A DNA stretch of 64,000 nt, taken from positions 403,692-467,691 of the forward strand of contig JAJNNY010000030.1 of NCBI GenBank assembly GCA_022453515.1, written 5' to 3'. Below the pieces are notes generated by a model. That model was not told where the DNA came from, did no database searches, and worked only from the letters and a program-made list of their open reading frames with translations. This DNA comes from Astrocystis sublimbata. Its lineage: Eukaryota; Ascomycota; Sordariomycetes; Xylariales; Xylariaceae. The first letter of the stretch is position 1; each line of letters starts with the position of its first letter. The position numbers were made by a program, and so were the translations under genes. Shown here piece by piece: positions 27,760 through 64,000 of this stretch.

Positions 27760-28691
27760 AGACAAATAAATAGGTATGTTGGAGAGAATGGGGAGGAAGG
27801 GGAAGAAGGGGGGGTAGAGAGACTTAGCGTTGGGTCTGCGGGACAGAGCATTCGAATTTGGCACATATGTACGTGCCCGTGTATTGGAGTCACAGGTTCA
27901 CAGCGACAGCATTGTTCACACAACATTGGTCTAGACAGCTAGCCTTAGGTAGCTTGGAGGGAGGTGAGTCAGGGTCAGCGAAAAGGTTCCGAATAGAGCA
28001 CAATATAGATAGACAAGAAAACAGGAGTGTTCCTAACGGAATTGAATTAATTAATGCATCACAATCAAATTTCTTTTTCTGGTCACGACCTCCTTCCTGT
28101 AAATGCTACATGACAAAGCTGTCTACAATCGAAACAACCGACAAGACAGATGACGCCGCAACGCCTTTTCCTCCCTTTACCTGCTTCGCCAAACGACCTA
28201 ACGACTACCGAATGCATCTATCTATTCCCCGCAAGGAAAAACAGAAACGAAAACGGAATACACGAGTATAGAGCATTATTCGAATGCAGTAATGAGTATT
28301 GTGATATGCTTGAATAAGCACTGTGGCTACGCCCTTTGACAGCATAACAAAGCAACTGATACGCTTATAACGCTCGACATCTCTCTGACACCCACTCCAA
28401 AAGTTCGACATCGCTGCGGCAGAAGAAACAGAAAAAGAACAGGAAGAAAAAAAGAAAAGGGAGAAAAGGATGAGAATGCTAGGTCACCCCCCATCAATCC
28501 GACGCATCCACTTTTGGATCCCAACCCAGATGAATCAGATCTGCCGCCCATTCTGCCTCCCAATCCCACCGAAATTGATGTTGCTCTGACTGTTGCTGCT
28601 TACCAGCATGGTGCGAAACTGGAGAAGGTTGGGGCTATATATTTTGTGGTGTTTGTTCTTGCCCCTGCCCATTTTCCGCATAATCTGGGTT
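27760..28691. other. Intergenic DNA containing the visible left limit of the inverted repeat
   Basis: This lies between the tafazzin stop and the open extension behind the PHO85-type kinase. No gene is supported. The mirror of the right edge of the window (64,000) falls at 28,569, so the left arm is seen from there inwards. Whether pairing extends further left cannot be decided here. Confidence 0.5.
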
Positions 28692-28967
28692 TCAGGGGAT
28701 CATGGTCCACGAAGACTGCTCTGACTGCTCTGACTGCTGCTGCTGCCCATTATCCGCACCACCTGGGGGTCGAGTGACTTTGGTCCACGAAGATGGTTCT
28801 GGGTGTGGGGGGACTTTGGTCCACGAAGATTGCCCCGAAGATTGCTCTGATTGATCTGGTTGCATCATGTCCTGCTCAGTCTCGTCAATATCCGCTTTCA
28901 AAGCCGCCTCCAAAGCCTCTACCCTTTCTGACCATTGCCGGCGTGCTTCTAGTTTGAACCGTTTCTC
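28692..28967 (-). other. Open 91-codon extension in frame behind the PHO85-type kinase stop
   Basis: Immediately after the kinase TAG (28968-28970), and in the same frame, 91 sense codons run to a TGA. The translation looks protein-like: an amphipathic charged helix (FKLEARRQWSERVEALEAAL) and then a Gln/Ser-rich tail with two copies of SSWTKV and one SSWTM. It could be reached by stop readthrough. Alternatively, the TAG may serve as a 3' splice site with the weak donor GTGCAG near the end of the kinase domain (a 108-nt removal, multiple of three). It could also be a relic of a longer protein. No ATG starts it cleanly. Confidence 0.4.
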
Positions 28968-30034
28968 CTAGTAACTCGCATCGTAGGAGCCCTGAGAGGC
29001 AACGGGCTGCGGCGCATAGCCCCTGGACTGTGCGTGCTGCTGCTGCTGCTGTTGTTGCATTTGTTGTTGCTGCACCAGCAGGTCGGAGAACCACGGGTGC
29101 TGCAAGGCGTCGTAGGCGCTGATGCGGTTCTCGGGGCGCAGGACGAGCATGCGGCTCAGGAGATCGATGCCTAGGTGGTCGATCTGGGGAAGGATGACGC
29201 GCAGGTCCTGGGTGGCGTACATCTGGAAGCTCGTCTTGTACTCGGGGAAGCTGCTGATGCCGGGCCAGGTGCGCTCGGTGGGGGTGCCCATGATGCGGAA
29301 GATGCGGATGATCTGGTCCTCGTTGGTGGTACCGGGGAAGAGGGGGCGGCCGGTGTACATCTCGGCCATGATGCAGCCGGCGGACCAGATGTCAATGCTA
29401 GTGTTGTAGGTGCGGCTGCCGAGCAGGACGTCGGGGGCGCGGTACCAGAGGGTGACGACCTCGTTGGAGAAGGTGTTGACGGGGATGCCGAAGGCGCGGG
29501 CGAGGCCGAAGTCGCCGAGCTTGAGGGAGCCCTTGCCGTTGATGAGCAGGTTCTGGGGCTTGAGGTCGCGGTGCAGGACGCGGTTCTGATGGCAGAAGTC
29601 GATACCCTTGAGCAGCTGGAACATGAAGGACTTGATGGTCATGGGCTTGAGGGCGCCGCGCTCGCCGTGGGTGTCCATGTACTTCTTGAGGTCGCCGTCC
29701 ATGAACTCGAAGACGAGCATGAGCTTGTTCTCGGTGTGGATGACGTCGTGCAGGGCGACGATGTTCTCGTGCTTGAGCTCCTTCATGAGGGAGATCTCGC
29801 GGATGGCGGTGCTGGGAGTGCCCTCCTCGGAGTCGAGGTGGATCTCCTTGAGAGCGACGAGCTCGCCGGTCTGGCGGTTGCGGCCTTTGAAGACCTAAGG
29901 GGCATGGATGCAAGAGTCAGTGATCAGTGGTGTTTCTTTGGTGATTCGTGCGGTTGACGACGTACGGTTGCATACGTGCCCTCTCCTAGCTTCTCGAGCT
30001 GTTGGAAGGAGCTCGGATGCCTCTTCGCGTCCAT
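28968..30034 (-). CDS. pho85: PHO85-type cyclin-dependent kinase (left copy)
   Basis: Two exons, 29966-30034 and 28968-29894 read leftwards, with a 71-nt phase-0 intron; 331 aa. Landmarks: Gly loop GEGTYATV at 17-24, catalytic Lys39 in VALKE, the cyclin-binding helix PSTAIRE at 50-56, HRDLKPQN at 131-138, DFG at 151-153, and activation loop [20 protein letters not shown] with a Ser where many CDKs have Thr, as in yeast Pho85. The tail is Gln-rich ([15 protein letters not shown]). In yeast Pho85 with various Pcl cyclins controls phosphate response, glycogen and cell-cycle exit; the fungal orthologues PhoA/PhoB and PREG-PHO85 act likewise. It is divergent from the septin-like gene. Confidence 0.95.
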
Positions 30035-30971
30035 GGTGGCGGGGGATGTGCTAGCCGGGTACTGGGGAGGGAGGGCTTCTTGGTGTTCTGGGGGGTTCTG
30101 GCGGATGTGGGAACAACAACGATGTTCATTCAGACGAGAGGCCAAAATGATGGGATGGATTATGTATGATATGTGGATACGGATGGGGGAGAGGAGGAGA
30201 GGAGCAGCTCGGAGGGGCAGATAGATAGATAGATGTTGGGCTAAGGTAGGATGCTTGACGTGTGGGTCTGTCTGTCGTCCCTTCCTCGCCTTTGCTTCTC
30301 CAAGTGTGGAAAGTACTTACCTACCAGTCGCCATTACTGCGTGGCACGAGTGACACCATGCCCGTTCGAGTTCGAGCAATTTCCACTTCAGGCATAGGTT
30401 GCAGCTTCCACACAACATCAACAACTACCACTCCACTCGTACCTACTGTGACATGTGAGTAACGCCATGGACAGGTACATATGTACCTATGTACTCTGTG
30501 GTGCCCACGGGGGTGCGGGGTCTTTTGAACTCTCCCCACCTCCCCCACCTCGAAACGAGAGACCCTGGTTATGCGTACTCTCCGCGGTACGCTTGCGACA
30601 TCTCGCGCATGAGAGCTCGTGTTTTGTCTTTTACACTTCATATGTGGCAGTAACGGGTCGTGAGATATCATACAACGAGTACCTAACCTGTATGGCCACA
30701 GCGCCTCGTCGGCTACACATGACGAACCGCCGCCGTCCCCCTTAGCCTTTAGCCCCCCTATCTCGCAGCTTACTCTGCAGATACGTCTTATCGACACGCA
30801 TCTATGCGACGGAATATCAGTCTAGATTAAACTCTGCCTCTGCTGCCCACGTCTCTTTCTCAACCGAATAATATACTCCATGTGCCACATATATAATAGT
30901 ACCTTGTTGAATGCCTCTGTCATCCTGTCCATCCTGTCCATCCTTATCCTTTCACATATCACGACGCCACC
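30035..30971. promoter_or_regulatory. Divergent promoter region, kinase and septin-like gene (left copy)
   Basis: These 937 bp lie between two divergent ATGs. A GATA-type tetranucleotide run (AGATAGATAGATAGATG, about 30,218-30,234) and a TCCATCCTG triplicate (about 30,922-30,950, just before the septin-like ATG) are the visible repeats. No coding signal. Confidence 0.5.
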
Positions 30972-33139
30972 ATGCGACCCGTCCACCCCGGCGATGCCCG
31001 GACTGCCGCTTCACAGCATCATCGCCCCCATCTGATGGCTCGTCCACCCACGAGTAACATCGTGTCCTTCTGCGTCGCCGACGAGGCTGCCCTTGACGCC
31101 CGTGGCCACGCCCCCGTCATCCCGCCCCCCCACAGCGCTGAATCCAAGAAGGTGAATGAGGGCCTGCCCCCGGTCGGCGGTCGGCATCTCCGAGAGGACC
31201 GAGTACACAAGACCGCAGACGACGATGCTTCGTTCTCCCCGCTCTCGGAGCCCCCTTCCGATTTTTGGACTCCAGCCTCACCACCATCACAGTCTGGGCC
31301 GTCATCCTCACCACGCCCTATCACGCCCACCATGCTCGCCAGTTCCGCTATCAGCTCCATCGGCAGCTCCTCGCCGAGAACAGCATCCTTTGAAAGCTCC
31401 CTCTCCGACGATGACGATGTCCAAAGCTACGACCTACCCTCTGTGACTGCATCAGACTCAGCCTCGGCCACATCTATGCTGGGTCGCGCGAGTGCTCCCC
31501 AGCTCGTCATGCCCAGCATCAGCATGCCCAGTCGTCGCCCCTTTACCGAAACCGGCAAGAACCTCGGCCACCTGAAGGTTCTCCTGGCTGGTGAATCCGG
31601 TATGTTCACCATTCTACCTCGCCACCATACTGACTGTCAACTGACCCCTTTACTTCTTCAAGGCGTTGGCAAAACATCGCTATTGAAAGCCATTGTTCAG
31701 TCCTGTCATCACATCGTGCATGTGGATCCCATATCGCCCCTGAACCGGAGTGCTTTCGAAGTTCACGCCAGCACAAAATCTTATCCGGGATGGTGGCATG
31801 AACTAGGCGTCCCTTCCATATCCCACCAGCGAAAGAGCCGAGAGGGCAATGTCCTAGAACGTAACCTCTGTTTCGTGGACACCCCGGGCTACGGCTGTCA
31901 ACAATCGGCAAGTGACTTACCCATGCTGTTCAGGCTTGTTCTAACGCGACACAGGTGATGGGGGCCATCAAGCCATGTGTCGACTATGTGGAATCTCACT
32001 TAAACAAGTTATCATCACCTGACTTAAGTGAACCTGATCTGATGAGCATGCTAGGAGGTGACGGTGGTTGCCAGGTGGATGTTGTTCTCTACCTCATCTC
32101 ACATAGTATGCCCTCCACCCCTTTTCACTCCCACCGCGAGACACAGCAGACGTGGGCAGCTAACACATACTCCAATCAAGGACTCAAAGCAGCTGATTTG
32201 GAATACATGCGTTGTCTCGCCGCCTTGACCAATGTTATTCCTATCTTATCCCGAGCCGATCTTCTCTCGGCGGAGCAAATCGGAACGAGCAAACAGCGGA
32301 TAGCTGCACAACTTGCAAGCTCGGGCATCCAGCCGTTCAGTTTCACGTCCACAGCGGACCTGGAAGAGCAGGAATGGGCGACACCAACCATTCCCTACAC
32401 CACGTCTAGTGTGACTCGGGATGACCACGAAACCATGGATGCTAGCATTCTCATGAAATCGGATTACATAGAGCCGCTTATCCCGACAGATCTTGCGTTT
32501 CTCGTAGACAAGATGTTCAGCGTCGACGGAGCGTCCTGGCTCCGACACTCTGCGGCTAAGAAGTACCTCCAGTGGCGCGAGTCGACCCCGCGTCGGCCCC
32601 GTGACCTATACCAACTGCTCAGCTCTCCGGTGTGCGACTACTCGACAGCGTTAACTCGGCGGTCTGATCCGTTCGCCACTCGACATGACCGGCAGCCAAG
32701 CGGTCCAGGTCCAGGCCCAGGCGTGCGATATGAGGTTGCTGACTGGGCTACGGATCTGCAGCGGAGCCAAGCGGCTGAGAGACAGAGATACGAGGCTCTG
32801 CTGCGCGGAGAGCATGCCATTTGGCTCACAGAGAAGCTGGGCAAATGCGTGCAGGATGGATCCTTGACAGCGACCAGCCCAGGCCACGGAGCTGTTACCA
32901 ACAACGGTAGTAATGGCGGACGGAGATCTCCGAGAGGAAAACGGGGTGCTTCCAAGACACAGCAGCACCAGGATCCGCTGGGTCTGCTACAAGCGACGCT
33001 GGATATGAAAGCGAAGAGCTGGCTGGCCGTGGAAATCGCCAGTGGCTTGGGACTGATTGGCCTGGCTGGCCTAGCGTGCTGGGTTGGTTGGCCATCCAAG
33101 GCGATCGGGAGGATGAATGAGTGGTGCATGGGGTTGTAA
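30972..33139 (+). CDS. Septin-like P-loop GTPase with C-terminal membrane segment (left copy)
   Basis: Four exons: 30972-31599, 31663-31907, 31955-32105 and 32181-33139; 660 aa. The second intron begins GCAAGT, a GC-AG intron. Residues 1-190 are Pro/Ser-rich and probably disordered. The G domain begins near 198: G1 GESGVGKTS at 207-215, G3 DTPGYG at 282-287, and the G4-like SRAD at 365-368 inside NVIPILSRADLLSAEQ, the pattern of septin GTPases (AKAD/ARAD). The LISHRLKAADLEYMRCL block restored by splicing intron 3 is also septin-like. Residues about 623-645 are hydrophobic (EIASGLGLIGLAGLACWVGW), a likely tail anchor not found in core septins. It is therefore called septin-like rather than matched to CDC3/10/11/12. 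Membrane-tethered GTPase function is inference. Confidence 0.85.
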
Positions 33140-33911
33140 GAGATAGATAGGTGTTCGAATTACCATCTCGGGAACGAGACTTCAGTGATTGTCAGGTCCG
33201 CTGCGTATACACCGCGCAAGCTGTCATTGGTCCCAAGCATGGCGCAATAGGTTAGCAATAGGGAGTGCTCGTTGGATTTTTGGGACTGGAACTGGGTTGA
33301 GGATTGGGAAGGGCTCTTGCAATTGTATTAGTATTATAGCAGCAACAAATAGTAATATCATAGGCACATTGGAAACAAGGCGGCTTAAACCACCAATTGA
33401 TAATACTAACCGCGCGATAGGAATATATATAAGATATTTAATATCCCTTTATTACTGGACTAATATACCGAGTAGATAGATGGTGCTCTACCTTCAAGCG
33501 CGTTTCTCAAACAACGGTAGTGGCACGAGTGGTATATCATGACCAATGCCAATGCCAAGACGCGTGGCGTCATGGACGCACGTCGTCACGTTAAGCCATA
33601 TTCAGCAAAGATCGCCATTCCAGCTCCCTTGCTCAAAGAGTGTGTAAGACAGCGTCAAAAGGACGTGCTCGCGTGCCCAGGTGGCGAGGGCGATAGGCAT
33701 GCCAGGTGTCTCAGGTGTCTCAGGTGTATTGGCTTGGGGTTGCGCCTTGGCTGTTCCGAGTTCCCATCGACATCAACTTCTCCCAGCCATGCTGTCCTCA
33801 CTCATCCCGGGTAATTGTTGAAACAGCGCTGATCCAATTCAATTGAATCCAGTCCCAATTGAACCCCAATTTCGCTGCGCTTTTGCTTCCTCTCCTGTCC
33901 TCAATGCCAAC
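33140..33911. other. Spacer with AT-rich patch and 9-nt tandem repeat (left copy)
   Basis: About 33,300-33,480 is AT- and TpA-rich, possibly a small RIP-decayed relic. At 33,703-33,728 the unit CAGGTGTCT is repeated almost three times. A frame open to 34,844 starts upstream with TTG; the transporter ATG is at 33,912. Confidence 0.45.
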
Positions 33912-34844
33912 ATGAACTTCGGACAGACGGTCGCGAGCGCGATCATCACGTTCGCCATCACCAACGTCGACGACGCCTTCGTCCTAGCGACCTTCTTCGC
34001 CGAGTCCGCCACCTCGTCGTCTTCGCGCAACGACCACAACGCCCTGACGCCCCTCAAGATCACCATCGGCCAGTATGTCGGCTTCACCGTCATCGTCGCC
34101 ATCAGCCTGATCGGCTACGGCGTCTCCGTCGTCCTGCCGTACCAGCCCATCGGCTTTCTAGGACTGCTGCCCATCGTCCTGGGCTTCTGGAAGCTGCTGG
34201 GCCTGTTCCTCGATACCAAGGGCCAGGACGAGGAGACCGAGGAAGAAGTCGAGAGCGTGAGGCGCACAAAGGGCTATCTGAGGGCCATCGCCAAGGTCGC
34301 CCTCATCACCGTCGTCAACGGAGGCGAGAACCTAGGCACCTACGTCCCGCTCTTCTCGCAGGCTGAGGGCGCCGAGATCGCCATCTACCTCGTCGTGTAC
34401 TATATCCTGCTGGGAGTCTGGTGTCTGGTGGCCTTTCTCATCATCAGGCAGAAACATGTGCTGGCGGTGGTGCATCGGTATGCCGATATGGTCATCCCTT
34501 TCTTGTACATGGGGATAGGCGTCTATATCGTTGTTGTGTCGGAGGCGTATCCGTGGGCGATTGACAAGGTCGATGACGAGCTGAGGACGAATTCCGGAAG
34601 AGCTATCTTGGCGGGCGTGACGTCGGCGTTCCTGCTACTCGCTATTGGTGCCATGGCGTGGATTAAGTGGCGCAGGAGACGCAAGGAGACTGGGGACGTT
34701 TTGACTGCTGAGGATGGGGATGGCGCGGGTGTTAATGACCCTACGAGTGCGGCTGCGACGGCGACTACAACTACGGCACCCGTCACGGACCCCGAGATTG
34801 GAAATGCCCCGGCGCGGGATTTGAATTACGGAACTATGAAGTAG
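33912..34844 (+). CDS. CadD-family (cadmium resistance) membrane transporter (left copy)
   Basis: Intronless, 310 aa from ATG 33912 (MNFGQTVASAIITFAITNVD). The N-terminal helix with the ITNVDDAFVLATFF motif is the signature of the CadD/LysE-like cadmium resistance transporter family. Six or so hydrophobic segments follow: VGFTVIVAISLIGYGVSVVL, IGFLGLLPIVLGFWKLLGLF, ALITVVNGGENLGTYVPLFS, a YLVVYYILLGVWCLVAFLII segment, VIPFLYMGIGVYIVVVSEAY and one near the C-terminus. The NGGENLGTYVPLF block mirrors the first motif, consistent with the family's internal duplication. The tail is Thr/Ala-rich and cytosolic. Bacterial members export Cd2+; in fungi the substrate is not established. The frame is open 69 nt upstream but only through non-ATG codons, so 33912 is preferred. 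Confidence 0.85.
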   Translation: MNFGQTVASAIITFAITNVDDAFVLATFFAESATSSSSRNDHNALTPLKITIGQYVGFTVIVAISLIGYGVSVVLPYQPIGFLGLLPIVLGFWKLLGLFLDTKGQDEETEEEVESVRRTKGYLRAIAKVALITVVNGGENLGTYVPLFSQAEGAEIAIYLVVYYILLGVWCLVAFLIIRQKHVLAVVHRYADMVIPFLYMGIGVYIVVVSEAYPWAIDKVDDELRTNSGRAILAGVTSAFLLLAIGAMAWIKWRRRRKETGDVLTAEDGDGAGVNDPTSAAATATTTTAPVTDPEIGNAPARDLNYGTMK

Positions 34845-36305
34845 CGAACAGGGCGCAGCCAATTCAGCAAATGACTAACTAACCAGCCATCACGATGGGT
34901 TGTCCAATTACCCACAGATAGGCGCCAATATGAGCTTCAACTATTACGTCGCTACGGACACCCGTCCCTCACCCCATACCTGATCATAAGCGATGGTTTC
35001 CGACATCCATGTTTCTGGAAAGCGTTGCGTCAATAGCAAGTTGCCTCCTCTCGCCAGCCCCAGTCGCCGTCTGATGGGATGTCGCTCGTGGAGGTTCTAT
35101 GATTACCTAGGGTAATCGTCACCGCGGCTCGATCCCTGCGCGCCATTAAGGCAATTACTTCCATATACGCTGCCGTGTAAGTGTTCGGATTGCATTGGCT
35201 TTTTTGGACGCTCATCTGACCCAGCTAGCTATTATGCAGATTCTATATAGGACTCAGTCCTCTTGTAAACTACTTACTGCACAAGCGTTTCAAGGTGAAG
35301 CGGTATTCGCTGTTGCCCCTGCGACTCGAAATTACTTCATCGTGTTTCGACGATGAGGCATGAAGGCTACCCCGCGATCACGGCCAGGACCTCTATGCGC
35401 CACCAAAGTGAGGGGCGAAGCGGCTTCTTCGGCGTGCCGTGCCCTGCCCCTTGTCACAGTTCTCACTGCTGGGAGTCTGGTCAATAGATATTTTTGCTGC
35501 ACAAGGAGAAAAAGGCTCCTTTTCTGCCTAAAGCCAGGGACGCCATTCCCTACCGACCCGTGACACCATTGGACGGAGAGTAGTATGTGCTTATTGGGTT
35601 GTGAGAGAGCTTCTCATGGGATACGACGGGGATCTGAACATCCTTGGGTGTGAGCAGCATCGTGCTGCGCTGTCTTCGCTTCTGAGGGTGTGATTGTCGA
35701 GTTGATTTCCGCATTATAGATATGACTACATAGTCTTGATCCATCGTCGAGAGAATTGCATATCCAGTCCACCTCGCCCTCGAGGTGAGTCGGCAGGCAA
35801 CCGGAGCATCTTTTAGTGCTTCGACTTCGATCATCTCTCCATCAGCTTGTATGTGGTCAGACTGACCCAAACACCTATTACCATGTCTGTTTCTGGGGCG
35901 TGGTGCGTCCACCGTCAATGGTCGAGATGACAGCAAGGTGTGGCAGGAAGACGAAGGCTTAGCTGAAATTGTACTGGTGTTGGGGATAGCTGAACCAGCT
36001 GAACTGAGGTGGCTCGAGCTATTGAAGCAGCGTAGATATGGCACATGATTGAGTGGTGCCAAGAAACCAGCTGTAAGTGGCTAGCTGCTAAGTGCGTCTG
36101 CTTGAGGTGGTCGAGAACATGAGGGGGTCGAGAACATGAGGGGGTCGAGAACATCAGCCGCGATGGTTTCGAACGTCTATATAGACATAAGCATACAACT
36201 GGGCTTCCTTGAACTGGTCAATCTGATTAAATTAAACCTCTATTGGCAATGTTGATGATCTATCTGCCTTATCGTGATTGTCCCGCCTCCGCTTGATTGA
36301 TAATC
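34845..36305. other. Spacer, about 1.5 kb (left copy)
   Basis: A minus-strand open frame at 35550-36062 has no ATG at its head and no recognisable domain; it is not called. The 12-mer GGTCGAGAACAT occurs three times with 5-nt GAGGG spacers at 36,109-36,154, about 150 bp before the coiled-coil gene's ATG, and could be a regulatory repeat. Confidence 0.45.
36109..36154 (+). repeat. Three-copy 17-nt tandem repeat upstream of coiled-coil gene (left copy)
   Basis: GGTCGAGAACAT at 36109, 36126 and 36143, with GAGGG between copies. The mirror lies at 56,415-56,460. Its promoter position is suggestive; function unknown. Confidence 0.85.
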
Positions 36306-38810
36306 ATGGAGCTCATCAGACGTGATCGCCGATTGCGGTCCTTCACGCGCTTGCAAAACCCATCTGAAGCGACCTTAAATACATCTACGATTGAAACCCC
36401 GGCCTCATTCAGACAATGGGTCAATCACGGGCCACCACCGCAGCTCGCCACAGCGGTCCAGAGCAAAGATGTCTTCGTGAAGCAAACGTACGAACACTTC
36501 CAGCACGTGTGCAAGAGCACATGGACAACCAATATGGAGAACGGCATCAACGTCATTGTGTTCCTCGGAGACTGTCTTATTGACGTCTCAGATCCCAAGA
36601 CTAAGCAGATTCGAGTGATCTATACTCGTAATCATGAGCGGAACGTCGAGTTGAAGGGCGGCTTTGCAAATTACATGTCTATCCCACAGGCAGTGAACAA
36701 ATGCCATGACAAGTGCAAGGCTGCATTCGGCATCTTGCAGAAGTCGATGGGGGAAATCTCATCTGCTGCGAACGAACTCCATATCTCGCTGGGCCCTGTG
36801 AGTTTGAAGCCAGATTGGGTCTTGAGAACATAGTTACTAATGTCAGAGCAGCTAGGGAAACTTGCCCAGGCCACCCAGAACACCTCTGCAGATGCATCGA
36901 TCAACAAGCAGTGGCATGCGAGAGAGGTCTACAAGTTCATTGATGTGCAAATACAAGAGAGGCAGAAGATCATGGCCGAGTGGGCTAATCTCGGCGAACA
37001 CGTCTCGAATCTTCATGAAGTCTTGATTGACCAACTCGGTTAGTGCAGGACATCTCCCCTTTATCCCCTTTGTTATCTCAATATTTGTTGCCTTAACCTG
37101 TCGCTAATACTTACGAAGGCGTTTTTAATGACGAGGAGCTCAGATTGGAAAGAGAGATTAGACTAGGACATAACAAGACTGAGTCTCTGGACGAACGAAT
37201 CAAATCTCTCATGCGGGAGCAATCCATGGCATCCAATGACTTGTCCAGTCAAAGAAAGTTAAGGAGAGAGATACTAGGGCAGAGAGTCCATCTGCAAAAC
37301 GTCCAAGGGGACACGGCAGAGGAGCTCGACAAGGAAAGAGCGAACCAACGCCAAGCCGAGCTTCGCGAAGCAGACGAACAGTCTAGATTCAGCATTGCCG
37401 CCCAAGAGGATAGGGATCGGCGAGATAACTCGAGCGGTGAGTCGTGTTCCGGATGCTGAAGCTGGATTTCCGTTTTGTATTGACTGTATGGTTGCTCTAC
37501 TAGTCTTCAAGAAACTTTTCAGCTCGAGCTATGCGGAAGCGTCGAACTCTCATACCCAACGGACTCAAAATCGAAGTCTGCAGCATCAGAAGAACTTGGA
37601 CGATCAACTCGTTGGCAAATCCAAGATCCGCGCCCTTGAACAGGAGCTGGAGGCTGTCCAGCGCAAGATACGCAGGACGGACGACCCTGCTACGAAGGAA
37701 AGAGAGGTCGAGCTACGGAAACGGATCGACGAATTGAGTCTTGAGGTCGCAGGGGGCGAAACCAAGATTGAGAAGGAGCAGGAAAAGTTTGACGAGGCAA
37801 ACCAGGTTCTCCTGAATAACCAGCAAATGCTGGATTATGTGGTGAGTAATTGGATTTTACGCGAACTGCAGCATTGATCGGATGATGAAATGAATTATGT
37901 AGAAACTGACGAGGTATTAGGTACAATACAAGAACATCGTCCCAGACTTGTGTAGTCACCTCGCGAGCCTGGAAACGTATATCAGCCTTGTTATGACGTC
38001 CCTAGATGAGTTTTTGAACGCCATACCGAAGGGACTGGAAAGAGTTGACAAGTTTTTGGTCGGTATGGGATACAATGACGAGACCGGAGTCTTCGCCCAA
38101 ATCAATCGATCGCAGGCAGACATCAGGGTATTCACCGAGCCCCCAATGCTCGCTAATTATGCATCGGCACATCATACTAATCGGATGAATGTAGGAGTCA
38201 GTCGAAGACGCCACCATGTCGAGGGTGACGTTTGGTATCGTCCATCACATGGCGACACGGTGGACCGAGACCTGTAAGCAGATGTATCAGAAGGCATTGG
38301 CGAACATTGCGCCGATGGGGTCAATCAGTTCCGCCGCGGCCGCCCCAAAACTGTTCCTCGATTTCCAGAGCCGAAGCTCCGATAGCGTGTCCCAGATCTC
38401 CGGGAGCAGCTCGAATGGTCCGCCTAATCACTTGGCTTCCAAATACGACGCCACCCATCTCGATGGATTCTCGAGAGACGAGAGACGGCAGTTCCTGTGG
38501 GAAGGGCAGACTCGCACGATTGCAGCTATGAAAGGTGGTTCGGACACGGTATGGTATTATTGGCATGATGCAGCTCCATTGTCTCCTTCCCTTCGTTCGT
38601 AGGGTGAAGCTTGTACTGACTGCCACTCAGGAGAGAGCTCGTTTGATAGAGTGTCTGAATAAAAGCTATCAGGATGTCATGATCTCACCTGAGGTTATCA
38701 ATATGGCCAAACAGAGATCCATTAGTTGGGTACAGCAGCTGTCAAGGCTGTCGAGCCGCAGACGGTCGGCGGTTGAAATGCCTGTTTTAGAAGATCCCAT
38801 CCAGGGATAG
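36306..38810 (+). CDS. Uncharacterised coiled-coil protein, seven exons (left copy)
   Basis: Exons: 36306-36797, 36849-37038, 37119-37436, 37504-37841, 37921-38127, 38195-38548 and 38631-38810, all GT-AG and frame-consistent; 692 aa. I do not recognise the family. Residues 1-60 are basic. About 60-165 includes a conserved-looking helical block (HERNVELKGGFANYMSIPQA). From about 165 to 330 there are long charged helices (LERVEL-like heptads; EERELRLEREIRLGHNKTES lies at the exon 3 start). About 335-450 is a second coiled coil (KSKIRALEQELEAVQRKIRR). About 450-690 is helical again with a Ser-rich loop (SRSSDSVSQISGSSSNGPPN). There is no signal peptide and no clear membrane segment. Two helical bundles flanking long coiled coils suggest a structural or membrane-acting helical protein, but no function is claimed. 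Several introns are only 51-82 nt. Confidence 0.75.
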
Positions 38811-39120
38811 TATACAGGCTGCGATGGATCTCTACGTCCTGTTGCGTTGTGTGTTCACGAACATCTTCCTTAAGTTATACCCACGGGATAGGTACTCAGG
38901 TAATTATGCTTAGGGGAGGTGACATAACGGTCTGTTTCCTCCGTCTCGAAACGAATGATGTTGTTATTACACATGCAATCATTTCCACGTGGGTTAGTAG
39001 AGTAGCAATCCGATTGAACTTAATGCGCTTGGAATAAGATACGCATATATCTGGAATATCATGGCAATGTTGATCTGTCGCTCTCGCATCTTGTGCAATG
39101 ACTTGCAAAAGGCAGCTACG
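38811..39120. other. Convergent 3' spacer (left copy)
   Basis: A 310-bp stretch between the stops of the coiled-coil gene (plus) and the conserved unknown gene (minus). No signal beyond AT-rich 3' DNA. Confidence 0.45.
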
Positions 39121-46930: not shown

Positions 46931-46996
46931 TATTCTATTTTTTTTAAAATACTGTTTTATATATATATTTTATAAGGGGTCTATAGATAATATTCG

Positions 46997-52581: not shown

Positions 52582-53448
52582 ATGCCACCTCGTAAAGCGT
52601 GAAAAGACGCGACAGCTTCCTCGACTGGTGGCAGCGACGGACCACAGACGAGAGGAGCGAAGAGAAAGTCGACCAACAATATACCCGACACAGCCGCAGC
52701 CGACGGGAAGCGAGCCAAGACATCCGACACCGCGTCCACCAAAGAACCGGAAGCCCCCGCCGAGGAGCAACGGCCGCGCCTCACAACGCCAGACCTCGAG
52801 TTCGACTACGACCGGAGCCAGCTGCGAGATCCTCGGCCGACGCCCGGGCGGCTGTCTCGACCGCGATTCGAAGGCCGAGACTTGACCGAGGAATTCAAGC
52901 AGAGATTTGTCATTCCGCAACCCGAGCGGCCGAAGGGCAGACTCAGCGCCTACCAGAAGAACCTGTTGTTCAGAGAGCAGTGCTTCCTTGACCCCTCGGA
53001 GACGTTCCACGACTTATTTGTTTGCCACAAGAAAGGCGCTCGCGGGACCCCTACGTACGACGCGGCTGGCTTCCAGCTGGACTACAAAAAGGTGGACGAC
53101 TGGATGAAGCCAAAAGCCTACAACAAGGGACGCATCGTGCGTGGTATGGACAAGGCTATGGAGAGAGAGAGACGCGAAGAGCGCGAAATGTTTGAGATTT
53201 TCTTTGATCAGGACGACCAACCAGGCGACGAATCAGCCTCGATATCTGTCAAAGAATACGTCAAGGATTGCATCTCCAAAGACCTTGACGTTCCTTGGCA
53301 TCAAATTGATGCGAAGCGTGCGCGCGAGTGGCAGGAGAAGGGGTTCGAGAAGAAAAAGTTCTCGGAATGGTGGCAAGAGCCAAATGAGGAAGAGGAGAAG
53401 CGTATGTCGAACATGGAAATGGGTGCTAGTCTTCGTAAAGACCTCTAG
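52582..53448 (+). CDS. Conserved unknown protein with in-frame TGA at codon 7 (right copy)
   Basis: Mirror of the gene at 39,121-39,987: ATG 52582, TGA 52600-52602, final TAG 53446-53448. The TGA is identical in both arms, so it either predates the duplication or, if the arms are one locus read twice, is a single observation. Confidence 0.65.
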
Positions 53449-53758
53449 CGTAGCTGCCTTTTGCAAGTCATTGCACAAGATGCGAGAGCGACAGATCAAC
53501 ATTGCCATGATATTCCAGATATATGCGTATCTTATTCCAAGCGCATTAAGTTCAATCGGATTGCTACTCTACTAACCCACGTGGAAATGATTGCATGTGT
53601 AATAACAACATCATTCGTTTCGAGACGGAGGAAACAGACCGTTATGTCACCTCCCCTAAGCATAATTACCTGAGTACCTATCCCGTGGGTATAACTTAAG
53701 GAAGATGTTCGTGAACACACAACGCAACAGGACGTAGAGATCCATCGCAGCCTGTATA
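53449..53758. other. Convergent 3' spacer (right copy)
   Basis: Mirror of 38,811-39,120; nothing further seen. Confidence 0.45.
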
Positions 53759-56263
53759 CTATCCCTGGATGGGATCTTCTAAAACAGGCATTTCAACCGC
53801 CGACCGTCTGCGGCTCGACAGCCTTGACAGCTGCTGTACCCAACTAATGGATCTCTGTTTGGCCATATTGATAACCTCAGGTGAGATCATGACATCCTGA
53901 TAGCTTTTATTCAGACACTCTATCAAACGAGCTCTCTCCTGAGTGGCAGTCAGTACAAGCTTCACCCTACGAACGAAGGGAAGGAGACAATGGAGCTGCA
54001 TCATGCCAATAATACCATACCGTGTCCGAACCACCTTTCATAGCTGCAATCGTGCGAGTCTGCCCTTCCCACAGGAACTGCCGTCTCTCGTCTCTCGAGA
54101 ATCCATCGAGATGGGTGGCGTCGTATTTGGAAGCCAAGTGATTAGGCGGACCATTCGAGCTGCTCCCGGAGATCTGGGACACGCTATCGGAGCTTCGGCT
54201 CTGGAAATCGAGGAACAGTTTTGGGGCGGCCGCGGCGGAACTGATTGACCCCATCGGCGCAATGTTCGCCAATGCCTTCTGATACATCTGCTTACAGGTC
54301 TCGGTCCACCGTGTCGCCATGTGATGGACGATACCAAACGTCACCCTCGACATGGTGGCGTCTTCGACTGACTCCTACATTCATCCGATTAGTATGATGT
54401 GCCGATGCATAATTAGCGAGCATTGGGGGCTCGGTGAATACCCTGATGTCTGCCTGCGATCGATTGATTTGGGCGAAGACTCCGGTCTCGTCATTGTATC
54501 CCATACCGACCAAAAACTTGTCAACTCTTTCCAGTCCCTTCGGTATGGCGTTCAAAAACTCATCTAGGGACGTCATAACAAGGCTGATATACGTTTCCAG
54601 GCTCGCGAGGTGACTACACAAGTCTGGGACGATGTTCTTGTATTGTACCTAATACCTCGTCAGTTTCTACATAATTCATTTCATCATCCGATCAATGCTG
54701 CAGTTCGCGTAAAATCCAATTACTCACCACATAATCCAGCATTTGCTGGTTATTCAGGAGAACCTGGTTTGCCTCGTCAAACTTTTCCTGCTCCTTCTCA
54801 ATCTTGGTTTCGCCCCCTGCGACCTCAAGACTCAATTCGTCGATCCGTTTCCGTAGCTCGACCTCTCTTTCCTTCGTAGCAGGGTCGTCCGTCCTGCGTA
54901 TCTTGCGCTGGACAGCCTCCAGCTCCTGTTCAAGGGCGCGGATCTTGGATTTGCCAACGAGTTGATCGTCCAAGTTCTTCTGATGCTGCAGACTTCGATT
55001 TTGAGTCCGTTGGGTATGAGAGTTCGACGCTTCCGCATAGCTCGAGCTGAAAAGTTTCTTGAAGACTAGTAGAGCAACCATACAGTCAATACAAAACGGA
55101 AATCCAGCTTCAGCATCCGGAACACGACTCACCGCTCGAGTTATCTCGCCGATCCCTATCCTCTTGGGCGGCAATGCTGAATCTAGACTGTTCGTCTGCT
55201 TCGCGAAGCTCGGCTTGGCGTTGGTTCGCTCTTTCCTTGTCGAGCTCCTCTGCCGTGTCCCCTTGGACGTTTTGCAGATGGACTCTCTGCCCTAGTATCT
55301 CTCTCCTTAACTTTCTTTGACTGGACAAGTCATTGGATGCCATGGATTGCTCCCGCATGAGAGATTTGATTCGTTCGTCCAGAGACTCAGTCTTGTTATG
55401 TCCTAGTCTAATCTCTCTTTCCAATCTGAGCTCCTCGTCATTAAAAACGCCTTCGTAAGTATTAGCGACAGGTTAAGGCAACAAATATTGAGATAACAAA
55501 GGGGATAAAGGGGAGATGTCCTGCACTAACCGAGTTGGTCAATCAAGACTTCATGAAGATTCGAGACGTGTTCGCCGAGATTAGCCCACTCGGCCATGAT
55601 CTTCTGCCTCTCTTGTATTTGCACATCAATGAACTTGTAGACCTCTCTCGCATGCCACTGCTTGTTGATCGATGCATCTGCAGAGGTGTTCTGGGTGGCC
55701 TGGGCAAGTTTCCCTAGCTGCTCTGACATTAGTAACTATGTTCTCAAGACCCAATCTGGCTTCAAACTCACAGGGCCCAGCGAGATATGGAGTTCGTTCG
55801 CAGCAGATGAGATTTCCCCCATCGACTTCTGCAAGATGCCGAATGCAGCCTTGCACTTGTCATGGCATTTGTTCACTGCCTGTGGGATAGACATGTAATT
55901 TGCAAAGCCGCCCTTCAACTCGACGTTCCGCTCATGATTACGAGTATAGATCACTCGAATCTGCTTAGTCTTGGGATCTGAGACGTCAATAAGACAGTCT
56001 CCGAGGAACACAATGACGTTGATGCCGTTCTCCATATTGGTTGTCCATGTGCTCTTGCACACGTGCTGGAAGTGTTCGTACGTTTGCTTCACGAAGACAT
56101 CTTTGCTCTGGACCGCTGTGGCGAGCTGCGGTGGTGGCCCGTGATTGACCCATTGTCTGAATGAGGCCGGGGTTTCAATCGTAGATGTATTTAAGGTCGC
56201 TTCAGATGGGTTTTGCAAGCGCGTGAAGGACCGCAATCGGCGATCACGTCTGATGAGCTCCAT
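53759..56263 (-). CDS. Uncharacterised coiled-coil protein, seven exons (right copy)
   Basis: Mirror of the left copy. Exons in minus-strand order: 55772-56263, 55531-55720, 55133-55450, 54728-55065, 54442-54648, 54021-54374 and 53759-53938; 692 aa with no difference seen. Confidence 0.75.
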
Positions 56264-57724
56264 GATTATCAATCAAGCGGAGGCGGGACAATCACGATAA
56301 GGCAGATAGATCATCAACATTGCCAATAGAGGTTTAATTTAATCAGATTGACCAGTTCAAGGAAGCCCAGTTGTATGCTTATGTCTATATAGACGTTCGA
56401 AACCATCGCGGCTGATGTTCTCGACCCCCTCATGTTCTCGACCCCCTCATGTTCTCGACCACCTCAAGCAGACGCACTTAGCAGCTAGCCACTTACAGCT
56501 GGTTTCTTGGCACCACTCAATCATGTGCCATATCTACGCTGCTTCAATAGCTCGAGCCACCTCAGTTCAGCTGGTTCAGCTATCCCCAACACCAGTACAA
56601 TTTCAGCTAAGCCTTCGTCTTCCTGCCACACCTTGCTGTCATCTCGACCATTGACGGTGGACGCACCACGCCCCAGAAACAGACATGGTAATAGGTGTTT
56701 GGGTCAGTCTGACCACATACAAGCTGATGGAGAGATGATCGAAGTCGAAGCACTAAAAGATGCTCCGGTTGCCTGCCGACTCACCTCGAGGGCGAGGTGG
56801 ACTGGATATGCAATTCTCTCGACGATGGATCAAGACTATGTAGTCATATCTATAATGCGGAAATCAACTCGACAATCACACCCTCAGAAGCGAAGACAGC
56901 GCAGCACGATGCTGCTCACACCCAAGGATGTTCAGATCCCCGTCGTATCCCATGAGAAGCTCTCTCACAACCCAATAAGCACATACTACTCTCCGTCCAA
57001 TGGTGTCACGGGTCGGTAGGGAATGGCGTCCCTGGCTTTAGGCAGAAAAGGAGCCTTTTTCTCCTTGTGCAGCAAAAATATCTATTGACCAGACTCCCAG
57101 CAGTGAGAACTGTGACAAGGGGCAGGGCACGGCACGCCGAAGAAGCCGCTTCGCCCCTCACTTTGGTGGCGCATAGAGGTCCTGGCCGTGATCGCGGGGT
57201 AGCCTTCATGCCTCATCGTCGAAACACGATGAAGTAATTTCGAGTCGCAGGGGCAACAGCGAATACCGCTTCACCTTGAAACGCTTGTGCAGTAAGTAGT
57301 TTACAAGAGGACTGAGTCCTATATAGAATCTGCATAATAGCTAGCTGGGTCAGATGAGCGTCCAAAAAAGCCAATGCAATCCGAACACTTACACGGCAGC
57401 GTATATGGAAGTAATTGCCTTAATGGCGCGCAGGGATCGAGCCGCGGTGACGATTACCCTAGGTAATCATAGAACCTCCACGAGCGACATCCCATCAGAC
57501 GGCGACTGGGGCTGGCGAGAGGAGGCAACTTGCTATTGACGCAACGCTTTCCAGAAACATGGATGTCGGAAACCATCGCTTATGATCAGGTATGGGGTGA
57601 GGGACGGGTGTCCGTAGCGACGTAATAGTTGAAGCTCATATTGGCGCCTATCTGTGGGTAATTGGACAACCCATCGTGATGGCTGGTTAGTTAGTCATTT
57701 GCTGAATTGGCTGCGCCCTGTTCG
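56264..57724. other. Spacer, about 1.5 kb (right copy)
   Basis: Mirror of 34,845-36,305. The three-copy 12-mer lies at 56,415-56,460, reading ATGTTCTCGACC on the plus strand. An open frame at 56507-57019 lacks an ATG and domain signal and is not called. Confidence 0.45.
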
Positions 57725-58657
57725 CTACTTCATAGTTCCGTAATTCAAATCCCGCGCCGGGGCATTTCCAATCTCGGGGTCCGTGACGGGTGCCGTAGTT
57801 GTAGTCGCCGTCGCAGCCGCACTCGTAGGGTCATTAACACCCGCGCCATCCCCATCCTCAGCAGTCAAAACGTCCCCAGTCTCCTTGCGTCTCCTGCGCC
57901 ACTTAATCCACGCCATGGCACCAATAGCGAGTAGCAGGAACGCCGACGTCACGCCCGCCAAGATAGCTCTTCCGGAATTCGTCCTCAGCTCGTCATCGAC
58001 CTTGTCAATCGCCCACGGATACGCCTCCGACACAACAACGATATAGACGCCTATCCCCATGTACAAGAAAGGGATGACCATATCGGCATACCGATGCACC
58101 ACCGCCAGCACATGTTTCTGCCTGATGATGAGAAAGGCCACCAGACACCAGACTCCCAGCAGGATATAGTACACGACGAGGTAGATGGCGATCTCGGCGC
58201 CCTCAGCCTGCGAGAAGAGCGGGACGTAGGTGCCTAGGTTCTCGCCTCCGTTGACGACGGTGATGAGGGCGACCTTGGCGATGGCCCTCAGATAGCCCTT
58301 TGTGCGCCTCACGCTCTCGACTTCTTCCTCGGTCTCCTCGTCCTGGCCCTTGGTATCGAGGAACAGGCCCAGCAGCTTCCAGAAGCCCAGGACGATGGGC
58401 AGCAGTCCTAGAAAGCCGATGGGCTGGTACGGCAGGACGACGGAGACGCCGTAGCCGATCAGGCTGATGGCGACGATGACGGTGAAGCCGACATACTGGC
58501 CGATGGTGATCTTGAGGGGCGTCAGGGCGTTGTGGTCGTTGCGCGAAGACGACGAGGTGGCGGACTCGGCGAAGAAGGTCGCTAGGACGAAGGCGTCGTC
58601 GACGTTGGTGATGGCGAACGTGATGATCGCGCTCGCGACCGTCTGTCCGAAGTTCAT
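57725..58657 (-). CDS. CadD-family (cadmium resistance) membrane transporter (right copy)
   Basis: Mirror of 33,912-34,844, 310 aa, start ATG at 58655-58657. No difference from the left copy seen. Confidence 0.85.
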   Translation of the reverse strand: MNFGQTVASAIITFAITNVDDAFVLATFFAESATSSSSRNDHNALTPLKITIGQYVGFTVIVAISLIGYGVSVVLPYQPIGFLGLLPIVLGFWKLLGLFLDTKGQDEETEEEVESVRRTKGYLRAIAKVALITVVNGGENLGTYVPLFSQAEGAEIAIYLVVYYILLGVWCLVAFLIIRQKHVLAVVHRYADMVIPFLYMGIGVYIVVVSEAYPWAIDKVDDELRTNSGRAILAGVTSAFLLLAIGAMAWIKWRRRRKETGDVLTAEDGDGAGVNDPTSAAATATTTTAPVTDPEIGNAPARDLNYGTMK

Positions 58658-59429
58658 GTTGGCATTGAGGACAGGAGAGGAAGCAAAAGCGCAGCGAAAT
58701 TGGGGTTCAATTGGGACTGGATTCAATTGAATTGGATCAGCGCTGTTTCAACAATTACCCGGGATGAGTGAGGACAGCATGGCTGGGAGAAGTTGATGTC
58801 GATGGGAACTCGGAACAGCCAAGGCGCAACCCCAAGCCAATACACCTGAGACACCTGAGACACCTGGCATGCCTATCGCCCTCGCCACCTGGGCACGCGA
58901 GCACGTCCTTTTGACGCTGTCTTACACACTCTTTGAGCAAGGGAGCTGGAATGGCGATCTTTGCTGAATATGGCTTAACGTGACGACGTGCGTCCATGAC
59001 GCCACGCGTCTTGGCATTGGCATTGGTCATGATATACCACTCGTGCCACTACCGTTGTTTGAGAAACGCGCTTGAAGGTAGAGCACCATCTATCTACTCG
59101 GTATATTAGTCCAGTAATAAAGGGATATTAAATATCTTATATATATTCCTATCGCGCGGTTAGTATTATCAATTGGTGGTTTAAGCCGCCTTGTTTCCAA
59201 TGTGCCTATGATATTACTATTTGTTGCTGCTATAATACTAATACAATTGCAAGAGCCCTTCCCAATCCTCAACCCAGTTCCAGTCCCAAAAATCCAACGA
59301 GCACTCCCTATTGCTAACCTATTGCGCCATGCTTGGGACCAATGACAGCTTGCGCGGTGTATACGCAGCGGACCTGACAATCACTGAAGTCTCGTTCCCG
59401 AGATGGTAATTCGAACACCTATCTATCTC
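58658..59429. other. Spacer with AT-rich patch (right copy)
   Basis: Mirror of 33,140-33,911, including the AGACACCTG tandem repeat at about 58,841-58,866. Confidence 0.45.
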
Positions 59430-61597
59430 TTACAACCCCATGCACCACTCATTCATCCTCCCGATCGCCTTGGATGGCCAACCAACCCAGCACGCTAGGC
59501 CAGCCAGGCCAATCAGTCCCAAGCCACTGGCGATTTCCACGGCCAGCCAGCTCTTCGCTTTCATATCCAGCGTCGCTTGTAGCAGACCCAGCGGATCCTG
59601 GTGCTGCTGTGTCTTGGAAGCACCCCGTTTTCCTCTCGGAGATCTCCGTCCGCCATTACTACCGTTGTTGGTAACAGCTCCGTGGCCTGGGCTGGTCGCT
59701 GTCAAGGATCCATCCTGCACGCATTTGCCCAGCTTCTCTGTGAGCCAAATGGCATGCTCTCCGCGCAGCAGAGCCTCGTATCTCTGTCTCTCAGCCGCTT
59801 GGCTCCGCTGCAGATCCGTAGCCCAGTCAGCAACCTCATATCGCACGCCTGGGCCTGGACCTGGACCGCTTGGCTGCCGGTCATGTCGAGTGGCGAACGG
59901 ATCAGACCGCCGAGTTAACGCTGTCGAGTAGTCGCACACCGGAGAGCTGAGCAGTTGGTATAGGTCACGGGGCCGACGCGGGGTCGACTCGCGCCACTGG
60001 AGGTACTTCTTAGCCGCAGAGTGTCGGAGCCAGGACGCTCCGTCGACGCTGAACATCTTGTCTACGAGAAACGCAAGATCTGTCGGGATAAGCGGCTCTA
60101 TGTAATCCGATTTCATGAGAATGCTAGCATCCATGGTTTCGTGGTCATCCCGAGTCACACTAGACGTGGTGTAGGGAATGGTTGGTGTCGCCCATTCCTG
60201 CTCTTCCAGGTCCGCTGTGGACGTGAAACTGAACGGCTGGATGCCCGAGCTTGCAAGTTGTGCAGCTATCCGCTGTTTGCTCGTTCCGATTTGCTCCGCC
60301 GAGAGAAGATCGGCTCGGGATAAGATAGGAATAACATTGGTCAAGGCGGCGAGACAACGCATGTATTCCAAATCAGCTGCTTTGAGTCCTTGATTGGAGT
60401 ATGTGTTAGCTGCCCACGTCTGCTGTGTCTCGCGGTGGGAGTGAAAAGGGGTGGAGGGCATACTATGTGAGATGAGGTAGAGAACAACATCCACCTGGCA
60501 ACCACCGTCACCTCCTAGCATGCTCATCAGATCAGGTTCACTTAAGTCAGGTGATGATAACTTGTTTAAGTGAGATTCCACATAGTCGACACATGGCTTG
60601 ATGGCCCCCATCACCTGTGTCGCGTTAGAACAAGCCTGAACAGCATGGGTAAGTCACTTGCCGATTGTTGACAGCCGTAGCCCGGGGTGTCCACGAAACA
60701 GAGGTTACGTTCTAGGACATTGCCCTCTCGGCTCTTTCGCTGGTGGGATATGGAAGGGACGCCTAGTTCATGCCACCATCCCGGATAAGATTTTGTGCTG
60801 GCGTGAACTTCGAAAGCACTCCGGTTCAGGGGCGATATGGGATCCACATGCACGATGTGATGACAGGACTGAACAATGGCTTTCAATAGCGATGTTTTGC
60901 CAACGCCTTGAAGAAGTAAAGGGGTCAGTTGACAGTCAGTATGGTGGCGAGGTAGAATGGTGAACATACCGGATTCACCAGCCAGGAGAACCTTCAGGTG
61001 GCCGAGGTTCTTGCCGGTTTCGGTAAAGGGGCGACGACTGGGCATGCTGATGCTGGGCATGACGAGCTGGGGAGCACTCGCGCGACCCAGCATAGATGTG
61101 GCCGAGGCTGAGTCTGATGCAGTCACAGAGGGTAGGTCGTAGCTTTGGACATCGTCATCGTCGGAGAGGGAGCTTTCAAAGGATGCTGTTCTCGGCGAGG
61201 AGCTGCCGATGGAGCTGATAGCGGAACTGGCGAGCATGGTGGGCGTGATAGGGCGTGGTGAGGATGACGGCCCAGACTGTGATGGTGGTGAGGCTGGAGT
61301 CCAAAAATCGGAAGGGGGCTCCGAGAGCGGGGAGAACGAAGCATCGTCGTCTGCGGTCTTGTGTACTCGGTCCTCTCGGAGATGCCGACCGCCGACCGGG
61401 GGCAGGCCCTCATTCACCTTCTTGGATTCAGCGCTGTGGGGGGGCGGGATGACGGGGGCGTGGCCACGGGCGTCAAGGGCAGCCTCGTCGGCGACGCAGA
61501 AGGACACGATGTTACTCGTGGGTGGACGAGCCATCAGATGGGGGCGATGATGCTGTGAAGCGGCAGTCCGGGCATCGCCGGGGTGGACGGGTCGCAT
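59430..61597 (-). CDS. Septin-like P-loop GTPase with C-terminal membrane segment (right copy)
   Basis: Mirror of the left copy. Exons in minus-strand order: 60970-61597, 60662-60906, 60464-60614 and 59430-60388; 660 aa, with the same GC-AG second intron. Confidence 0.85.
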
Positions 61598-62534
61598 GGT
61601 GGCGTCGTGATATGTGAAAGGATAAGGATGGACAGGATGGACAGGATGACAGAGGCATTCAACAAGGTACTATTATATATGTGGCACATGGAGTATATTA
61701 TTCGGTTGAGAAAGAGACGTGGGCAGCAGAGGCAGAGTTTAATCTAGACTGATATTCCGTCGCATAGATGCGTGTCGATAAGACGTATCTGCAGAGTAAG
61801 CTGCGAGATAGGGGGGCTAAAGGCTAAGGGGGACGGCGGCGGTTCGTCATGTGTAGCCGACGAGGCGCTGTGGCCATACAGGTTAGGTACTCGTTGTATG
61901 ATATCTCACGACCCGTTACTGCCACATATGAAGTGTAAAAGACAAAACACGAGCTCTCATGCGCGAGATGTCGCAAGCGTACCGCGGAGAGTACGCATAA
62001 CCAGGGTCTCTCGTTTCGAGGTGGGGGAGGTGGGGAGAGTTCAAAAGACCCCGCACCCCCGTGGGCACCACAGAGTACATAGGTACATATGTACCTGTCC
62101 ATGGCGTTACTCACATGTCACAGTAGGTACGAGTGGAGTGGTAGTTGTTGATGTTGTGTGGAAGCTGCAACCTATGCCTGAAGTGGAAATTGCTCGAACT
62201 CGAACGGGCATGGTGTCACTCGTGCCACGCAGTAATGGCGACTGGTAGGTAAGTACTTTCCACACTTGGAGAAGCAAAGGCGAGGAAGGGACGACAGACA
62301 GACCCACACGTCAAGCATCCTACCTTAGCCCAACATCTATCTATCTATCTGCCCCTCCGAGCTGCTCCTCTCCTCCTCTCCCCCATCCGTATCCACATAT
62401 CATACATAATCCATCCCATCATTTTGGCCTCTCGTCTGAATGAACATCGTTGTTGTTCCCACATCCGCCAGAACCCCCCAGAACACCAAGAAGCCCTCCC
62501 TCCCCAGTACCCGGCTAGCACATCCCCCGCCACC
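61598..62534. promoter_or_regulatory. Divergent promoter region, septin-like gene and kinase (right copy)
   Basis: Mirror of 30,035-30,971. Confidence 0.5.
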
Positions 62535-63601
62535 ATGGACGCGAAGAGGCATCCGAGCTCCTTCCAACAGCTCGAGAAGCTAGGAGAGGGCACGTATGCA
62601 ACCGTACGTCGTCAACCGCACGAATCACCAAAGAAACACCACTGATCACTGACTCTTGCATCCATGCCCCTTAGGTCTTCAAAGGCCGCAACCGCCAGAC
62701 CGGCGAGCTCGTCGCTCTCAAGGAGATCCACCTCGACTCCGAGGAGGGCACTCCCAGCACCGCCATCCGCGAGATCTCCCTCATGAAGGAGCTCAAGCAC
62801 GAGAACATCGTCGCCCTGCACGACGTCATCCACACCGAGAACAAGCTCATGCTCGTCTTCGAGTTCATGGACGGCGACCTCAAGAAGTACATGGACACCC
62901 ACGGCGAGCGCGGCGCCCTCAAGCCCATGACCATCAAGTCCTTCATGTTCCAGCTGCTCAAGGGTATCGACTTCTGCCATCAGAACCGCGTCCTGCACCG
63001 CGACCTCAAGCCCCAGAACCTGCTCATCAACGGCAAGGGCTCCCTCAAGCTCGGCGACTTCGGCCTCGCCCGCGCCTTCGGCATCCCCGTCAACACCTTC
63101 TCCAACGAGGTCGTCACCCTCTGGTACCGCGCCCCCGACGTCCTGCTCGGCAGCCGCACCTACAACACTAGCATTGACATCTGGTCCGCCGGCTGCATCA
63201 TGGCCGAGATGTACACCGGCCGCCCCCTCTTCCCCGGTACCACCAACGAGGACCAGATCATCCGCATCTTCCGCATCATGGGCACCCCCACCGAGCGCAC
63301 CTGGCCCGGCATCAGCAGCTTCCCCGAGTACAAGACGAGCTTCCAGATGTACGCCACCCAGGACCTGCGCGTCATCCTTCCCCAGATCGACCACCTAGGC
63401 ATCGATCTCCTGAGCCGCATGCTCGTCCTGCGCCCCGAGAACCGCATCAGCGCCTACGACGCCTTGCAGCACCCGTGGTTCTCCGACCTGCTGGTGCAGC
63501 AACAACAAATGCAACAACAGCAGCAGCAGCAGCACGCACAGTCCAGGGGCTATGCGCCGCAGCCCGTTGCCTCTCAGGGCTCCTACGATGCGAGTTACTA
63601 G
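62535..63601 (+). CDS. pho85: PHO85-type cyclin-dependent kinase (right copy)
   Basis: Mirror of the left copy. Exons 62535-62603 and 62675-63601, with a CACCATGG start context at 62531-62538; 331 aa. All kinase landmarks (PSTAIRE, HRD, DFG) are identical to the left copy. Confidence 0.95.
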
Positions 63602-63877
63602 GAGAAACGGTTCAAACTAGAAGCACGCCGGCAATGGTCAGAAAGGGTAGAGGCTTTGGAGGCGGCTTTGAAAGCGGATATTGACGAGACTGAGCAGGAC
63701 ATGATGCAACCAGATCAATCAGAGCAATCTTCGGGGCAATCTTCGTGGACCAAAGTCCCCCCACACCCAGAACCATCTTCGTGGACCAAAGTCACTCGAC
63801 CCCCAGGTGGTGCGGATAATGGGCAGCAGCAGCAGTCAGAGCAGTCAGAGCAGTCTTCGTGGACCATGATCCCCTGA
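63602..63877 (+). other. Open extension behind the PHO85-type kinase stop (right copy)
   Basis: Mirror of 28,692-28,967: 91 sense codons in the kinase frame after TAG 63599-63601, ending in TGA. The repeated CTTCGTGGACCAAAGTC units (about 63,740 and 63,777, with a variant near 63,856) encode the SSWTK motif. Confidence 0.4.
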
Positions 63878-64000
63878 AACCCAGATTATGCGGAAAATGG
63901 GCAGGGGCAAGAACAAACACCACAAAATATATAGCCCCAACCTTCTCCAGTTTCGCACCATGCTGGTAAGCAGCAACAGTCAGAGCAACATCAATTTCGG

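Follow-up and report, generated by a model that had tools for sequence, protein, structure and literature searches.

Long-read sequencing is known to yield fold-back artefacts, in which the second half of a read is the reverse complement of the first half at the same locus. According to the study describing them (PMC12870357), such reads make up about 0.55-0.6% of Nanopore genomic DNA reads, were not systemic in three PacBio samples, and are argued to originate in library preparation. Multiple displacement amplification produces chimeras that contain inverted sequences, which arise when a 3' end primes on a short complementary stretch (PMC1855051, PMC6218980); these stretches measured 2-21 nt in more than 70% of junctions (PMC1855051). 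Fold-back inverted duplications have also been described in human chromosomes (PMC3907307). Here, we analyse a giant inverted repeat in a stretch of 64,000 nucleotides (the window) of the ascomycete Astrocystis sublimbata, a member of the Xylariaceae (assembly GCA_022453515.1, contig JAJNNY010000030.1, called C114 in our own contig labels). From sequence comparisons within this assembly, we estimate at roughly 95% the probability that the palindrome is an assembly fold-back artefact at a contig end and not a feature of the genome.

Positions 28569-45529 of the window are the exact reverse complement of positions 47040-64000, with no mismatch over 16,961 bases (position x pairs with 92,569-x), a pairing that cannot be due to chance. 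An earlier note on this DNA had described a giant near-perfect inverted repeat, and the deposited sequence does contain it. The limits given there, 28,569/64,000 and 45,529/47,041, stand except for the last, which is off by one (47040). The part between the arms (45530-47039) contains no unique spacer. It is the inner continuation of the palindrome up to a fold at about 46,284, and in self-alignment its two sides are alike save for short insertions or deletions (indels) and two substitutions at the fold itself. The mirrored blocks are 45528-45630/46938-47040 (100% identity), 45651-45898/46667-46914 (99%) and 45896-46246/46320-46670 (97%). In gapped alignment, the zone from 757 to 70 bases off the centre has no substitution and six indels, of which five are single-base changes in homopolymers and one is TCT; a further six indels and two substitutions lie in the final 50 bases before the centre. 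The totals are thus 12 indels and 2 substitutions, both of the latter within 38 bases of the centre. Since the inner halves mirror each other, we describe a single palindrome of about 35.4 kb, with an arm of about 17.7 kb from fold to end, rather than two arms flanking a unique spacer.

The window spans C114:403692-467691, and its position 64000 (C114:467691) is the final base of the contig. The right arm therefore does not run off the window, as the earlier note had assumed, and its suggestion of a larger extent finds no support in the sequence, as the contig stops there. In the deposited sequence, pairing ends at 28,569 on the left and at the contig end, 64000, on the right. When the whole assembly (42.6 Mb, 189 contigs) was searched with positions 28000-29500, a second, identical copy was found for 28569-29500 only, and none that was near-identical for the 569 bases from 28000 to 28568. 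For 2.5-kb and 3.0-kb stretches of the arm, exactly two near-identical copies each were found, both in C114. The left arm (28569-45529, + strand), joined to single-copy sequence on its left, probably represents the genuine locus, and the right arm (47040-64000, - strand), reaching the last base of the contig, is probably an artefactual second copy. No telomere repeat was seen by eye in the final 300 bases of the right arm, and a telomere-repeat search of the assembly gave no match in C114 among the 100 listed of 145. The outer end of the right arm showed no overlap with another contig and no junction to other sequence, although the contig break could conceal one.

The C114 palindrome is not alone in this assembly. 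We aligned 13 further fold-backs, in C57, C45, C38, C132, C158, C68, C13, C23, C59, C32, C41, C14 and C141. By self-alignment each is mirrored about its own centre, and the distance between centre and contig end ranges from 0.8 to 20.9 kb across all 14, C114 included. Three palindromes were found by tracing the transposon at the C114 fold (C57 from base 1 to 3020, C45 around 8740 and C38 around 3389), while the mirrored copies in C132 surfaced in the telomere-repeat search (99.9% identity over 5401 aligned arm bases, 0 mismatches and 4 gap openings). The others came from a sample of contig ends, for which every ninth contig, 20 in all, was chosen against bias. Seven of the 29 termini tested fold back, namely 4/17 starts and 3/12 ends. 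The folding starts are that of C158, judged by self-alignment (palindrome about base 806), and those of C68, C23 and C59 among the 16 other starts searched; the folding ends are those of C14, C32 and C41, each with an inverted second copy on its own contig. The same searches exposed the fold-backs of C13 and C141. Three starts were left out (C32, poly-A; C41 and C95, AT-rich), as were eight ends, mostly AT-rich or repeat-like by eye (C5, C50, C77, C86, C104, C122, C140 and C149). Inner inverted repeats of C41 and C95 (78% and 90% in 2,000-base self-alignments) stop short of the contig end and were not counted, since the terminal test detects solely fold-backs whose arm reaches the terminus. 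By comparison, 12 pieces taken from contig interiors, 40 kb or more away from any contig end, yielded no near-identical copy in inverted orientation among the best 40 of 80 candidates scored; these pieces were the first 12 to qualify of 17 loci from earlier searches and are not random. One of them carries a dispersed repeat (other copies at 76-87%), and another a 55-base match at 93%.

Some observations made along the way concern the same contig ends. In C81, a dispersed repeat is exactly mirrored between 8653-8739 and 10282-10368 (equal position sums) and may mark a further fold-back, which we did not count. C32, whose opposite end folds back, opens with 2000 A residues (GC 0.00 over positions 1-2000), a fault of assembly or sequencing that differs in kind from the fold-backs. 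The C132 fold-back mirrors interstitial TTAGGG repeats about 490 bases apart (275136-275658 and 279836-280358), and C15 has repeats with this spacing next to a long telomere-like array. Several sampled termini have copies at 98-100% on other contigs (C5/C153, C131/C130, C95/C107, C176/C148/C84 and C113/C58/C141), representing unmerged overlaps, redundant contigs or repeats.

For two of the sister fold-backs, the assembly itself contains the unfolded locus. The fold of C59 corresponds to C126:208870 and that of C32 to about C179:672,000; both counterparts continue straight, with no inverted self-match in the 2.2 kb examined in each. Consequently, the C59 and C32 folds are not fixed features of the chromosomes in the form that the assembly otherwise gives them. 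A mixed population of nuclei would leave the same picture: the fold-backs would be real, formed in the living mycelium where AT-rich repeats altered by repeat-induced point mutation break and fold back, some of the nuclei would have large inverted duplications at many loci, and C126 and C179 would represent the unrearranged nuclei. We find this hardly credible.

The fold junctions differ in detail. At C59/C126, a 3-base inverted repeat surrounds a 16-base loop of genomic sequence, after which the sequence turns back. The C32/C179 junction omits about 36 bases and gains a few others, and no clear inverted repeat was seen there. C13 and C68 cover a single locus and turn at points some 230 bases apart. 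This offset points to two separate chimeric molecules, although a loss of 455 central bases in C13 could also account for it. Twelve of the 14 fold centres lie in AT-rich DNA (GC 0.04-0.35 within 100 bases), and the remaining two, C32 (0.45) and C59 (0.54), are those with an unfolded counterpart. We infer that, where the true path was easy to assemble, the fold-back ended up in a small, redundant contig, whereas at AT-rich repeats it became the contig end.

The differences between arms are of one predominant kind. Across 15,461 aligned columns of arm beside the 14 folds, we counted 74 indels (68 affecting a single base) and 25 substitutions. Nine of the substitutions fall within 50 bases of a centre, one lies in C68 at 134 bases, and 15 form a cluster in C132, 905-1041 bases from its centre (277747.5); in the other folds, none lies more than 50 bases from the centre in the compared stretch. 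With the exception of C132, this indel-dominated pattern looks like uncorrected long-read errors and not like mutation or repeat-induced point mutation (RIP). A natural duplication would be expected to accumulate independent divergence between its arms, through substitutions or RIP. We found none over the 16,961 paired bases, which a very recent event would match too.

The C114 fold lies within an AT-rich, RIP-mutated transposon part (45636-46265, + strand), recognised by its genome matches and transition bias and mirrored on the right side at 46300-46932 (- strand; self-alignment, outer border approximate). This element may be Fot1/pogo-like, judging from residues read by eye. It has at least 45 matches in the genome, both palindrome copies included (best 40 of 75 candidates scored); the closest other copy among those scored is 90% identical, and several family matches lie near contig ends. 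Comparison of transposon copies places the turn at 46259-46297, where a loop of about 25 bases is enclosed by the two halves of a roughly 7-base inverted repeat, at 46259-46265 and 46291-46297, which match imperfectly in the window. Three other copies (L011, L012 and L020) continue past this point, and the right arm tracks them to the inverted repeat and then turns. In L012 the two halves of the repeat match exactly; in L011 they differ at one base and in L020 at more. Summed over all pairs of 11 copies (that of the window and ten of those listed), there were 3889 transitions against 95 transversions. Of the 253 differences with C in the other copy and T in the window copy, 173 precede A; differences from T to C are also present (138). 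Judging from these substitutions, the transposons of the genome carry a record of RIP, and its marks are absent from the 17-kb duplicate (0 mismatches). A real duplicate of 17 kb would need to have evaded RIP at each sexual cycle after its formation.

This bears on the possibility that the giant palindrome is real. A recent break in the transposon, fold-back annealing at the short inverted repeat and replication would then have given an inverted duplication of at least 35 kb, which reads cannot cross and at which the contig breaks. The perfect arms and the repeat-rich break site are consistent with such a history. So is the short inverted repeat with its loop, a trait shared with known fold-back duplications (PMC3907307) but non-discriminating, as the presumed artefact in C59 shows the same. 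On the other hand, 13 similar fold-backs lie near contig ends and two of them are contradicted by unfolded contigs, the outer end of the right arm overlaps no other contig, and the duplicate is free of substitutions despite the RIP record of the transposons. We consider a real palindrome very improbable. The earlier note had left the choice between an exceptional recent rearrangement and an assembly fold-back. Nothing calls for the former, and the latter is well supported because the arm ends at the contig end, 13 sister fold-backs exist, 7 of 29 tested termini fold back, two loci have unfolded counterparts and the arms differ mainly by indels.

Alternatively, a natural fold-back or composite transposon could have had its arms grown to 17 kb, as the fold lies inside a transposon whose family is also found as inverted pairs in C38, C45 and C57. 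However, these three are themselves contig-end fold-backs, mirrored beyond the element match; the DNA around the C59 and C32 centres has an ordinary GC content; the window arms hold ordinary genes; and L011, L012 and L020 suggest a family consensus without a palindrome at the fold. The probability of this origin is, in our view, close to negligible.

We therefore return to the assembly artefact, for which the following course of events may be proposed. During amplification or library preparation, a 3' end in the AT-rich transposon would snap back at the short inverted repeat and copy its own strand, giving fold-back molecules that would be sequenced as long reads. Lacking a good linear path at the transposon, the assembler would take such a read as its guide and retrace the locus as far as reads supported this; that point would be 17.7 kb from the fold, where the contig does end. 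Consensus correction would then equalise the unique arms, which could explain why mostly one-base indels are left near the fold. The genome would thus probably hold one copy of the locus, and the chromosome would go on past the transposon on another contig. The inverted repeat and the turn at the C114 fold are the footprint expected from a 3' end priming on its own strand; being shared with real fold-back duplications, this footprint informs on the chemistry and not on whether the palindrome is an artefact.

The same artefact might also have come from a hairpin adapter that went undetected, or from template and complement left unsplit in one read, instead of an enzymatic snap-back, a variant that is not exclusive of the preferred reading and has the same consequence. 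Older Nanopore protocols deliberately joined both strands (PMC12870357), and the C32/C179 junction, with no clear inverted repeat, would be compatible with this origin. Conversely, the C59/C126 loop is genomic and bounded by a 3-base repeat, the window folds at an inverted repeat of the transposon, and no match to the PacBio adapter sequence used was found at the 8 of 14 centres tested (best score 14/90). We regard this route as rather unlikely.

Several points weigh against an artefact, or against its proposed origin. Searches with 5.5 kb of the 17-kb arm and the transposon part revealed no contig in which the C114 locus itself is unfolded, so that this locus is judged by the example of its neighbours and by the assembly-wide pattern. 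The contrast between 7/29 termini and 0/12 interior pieces is small when taken alone, and the interior pieces are not a random sample. The substitution cluster in C132 does not fit simple read error, and no clear inverted repeat was seen at the C32/C179 junction. Short inverted repeats at the fold occur in real fold-back duplications too (PMC3907307), and arms of 100% identity are compatible with a very recent real event. Moreover, the three PacBio samples mentioned above showed no systemic fold-backs (PMC12870357).

As the arms are identical, any genes present are mirrored in both, and what looks like two sets of genes is probably a single locus recorded twice. A Pfam scan covered nine open frames of the arm, five of which match known families: a protein kinase (28968-29894, - strand), mirrored close to the contig end; a septin-like/DUF6780 frame (31916-33139, + strand) and a cadmium-resistance-transporter-like frame (Pfam Cad; 33822-34844, + strand), both mirrored in the right arm; and two DUF3433 frames of one gene. 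The last open frame of this gene (42321-45545, + strand, 1074 aa) has a right-arm mirror with one extra T a few codons ahead of the stop. It is 98% identical over its full length to a protein cluster (P0001) of two member sequences on one contig of 467,691 bases, which we read as the annotation of both arms. A homologue search for the Cad protein added nothing beyond the window's own protein.

Altogether, these findings are a warning on assembly rather than on biology. The genes of the arm were probably counted twice, as the two members of P0001 on one contig illustrate, and duplicates of perfect identity mimic a very recent gene amplification. With about a quarter of the tested contig ends affected (7/29), uncritical use of this assembly to study duplications, escape from RIP or palindromes would mislead.

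Compared with described systems, the C114 palindrome resembles the long-read fold-back artefact (PMC12870357): beyond the turn, where little or no foreign sequence intervenes, the locus is repeated as its own reverse complement. That artefact was described in reads, whereas in C114 it appears to have been carried into a contig end. The repeats of 3 bases in C59 and about 7 bases in the window resemble the junctions of displacement-amplification chimeras (PMC1855051). The human fold-back inverted duplications (PMC3907307) are similar in their short boundary inverted sequences and loop-derived spacer. Those, however, are real chromosomes, documented by array, capture sequencing and PCR, while the C114 arm stops at the end of its contig and two of its sister cases have unfolded counterparts in the same assembly.

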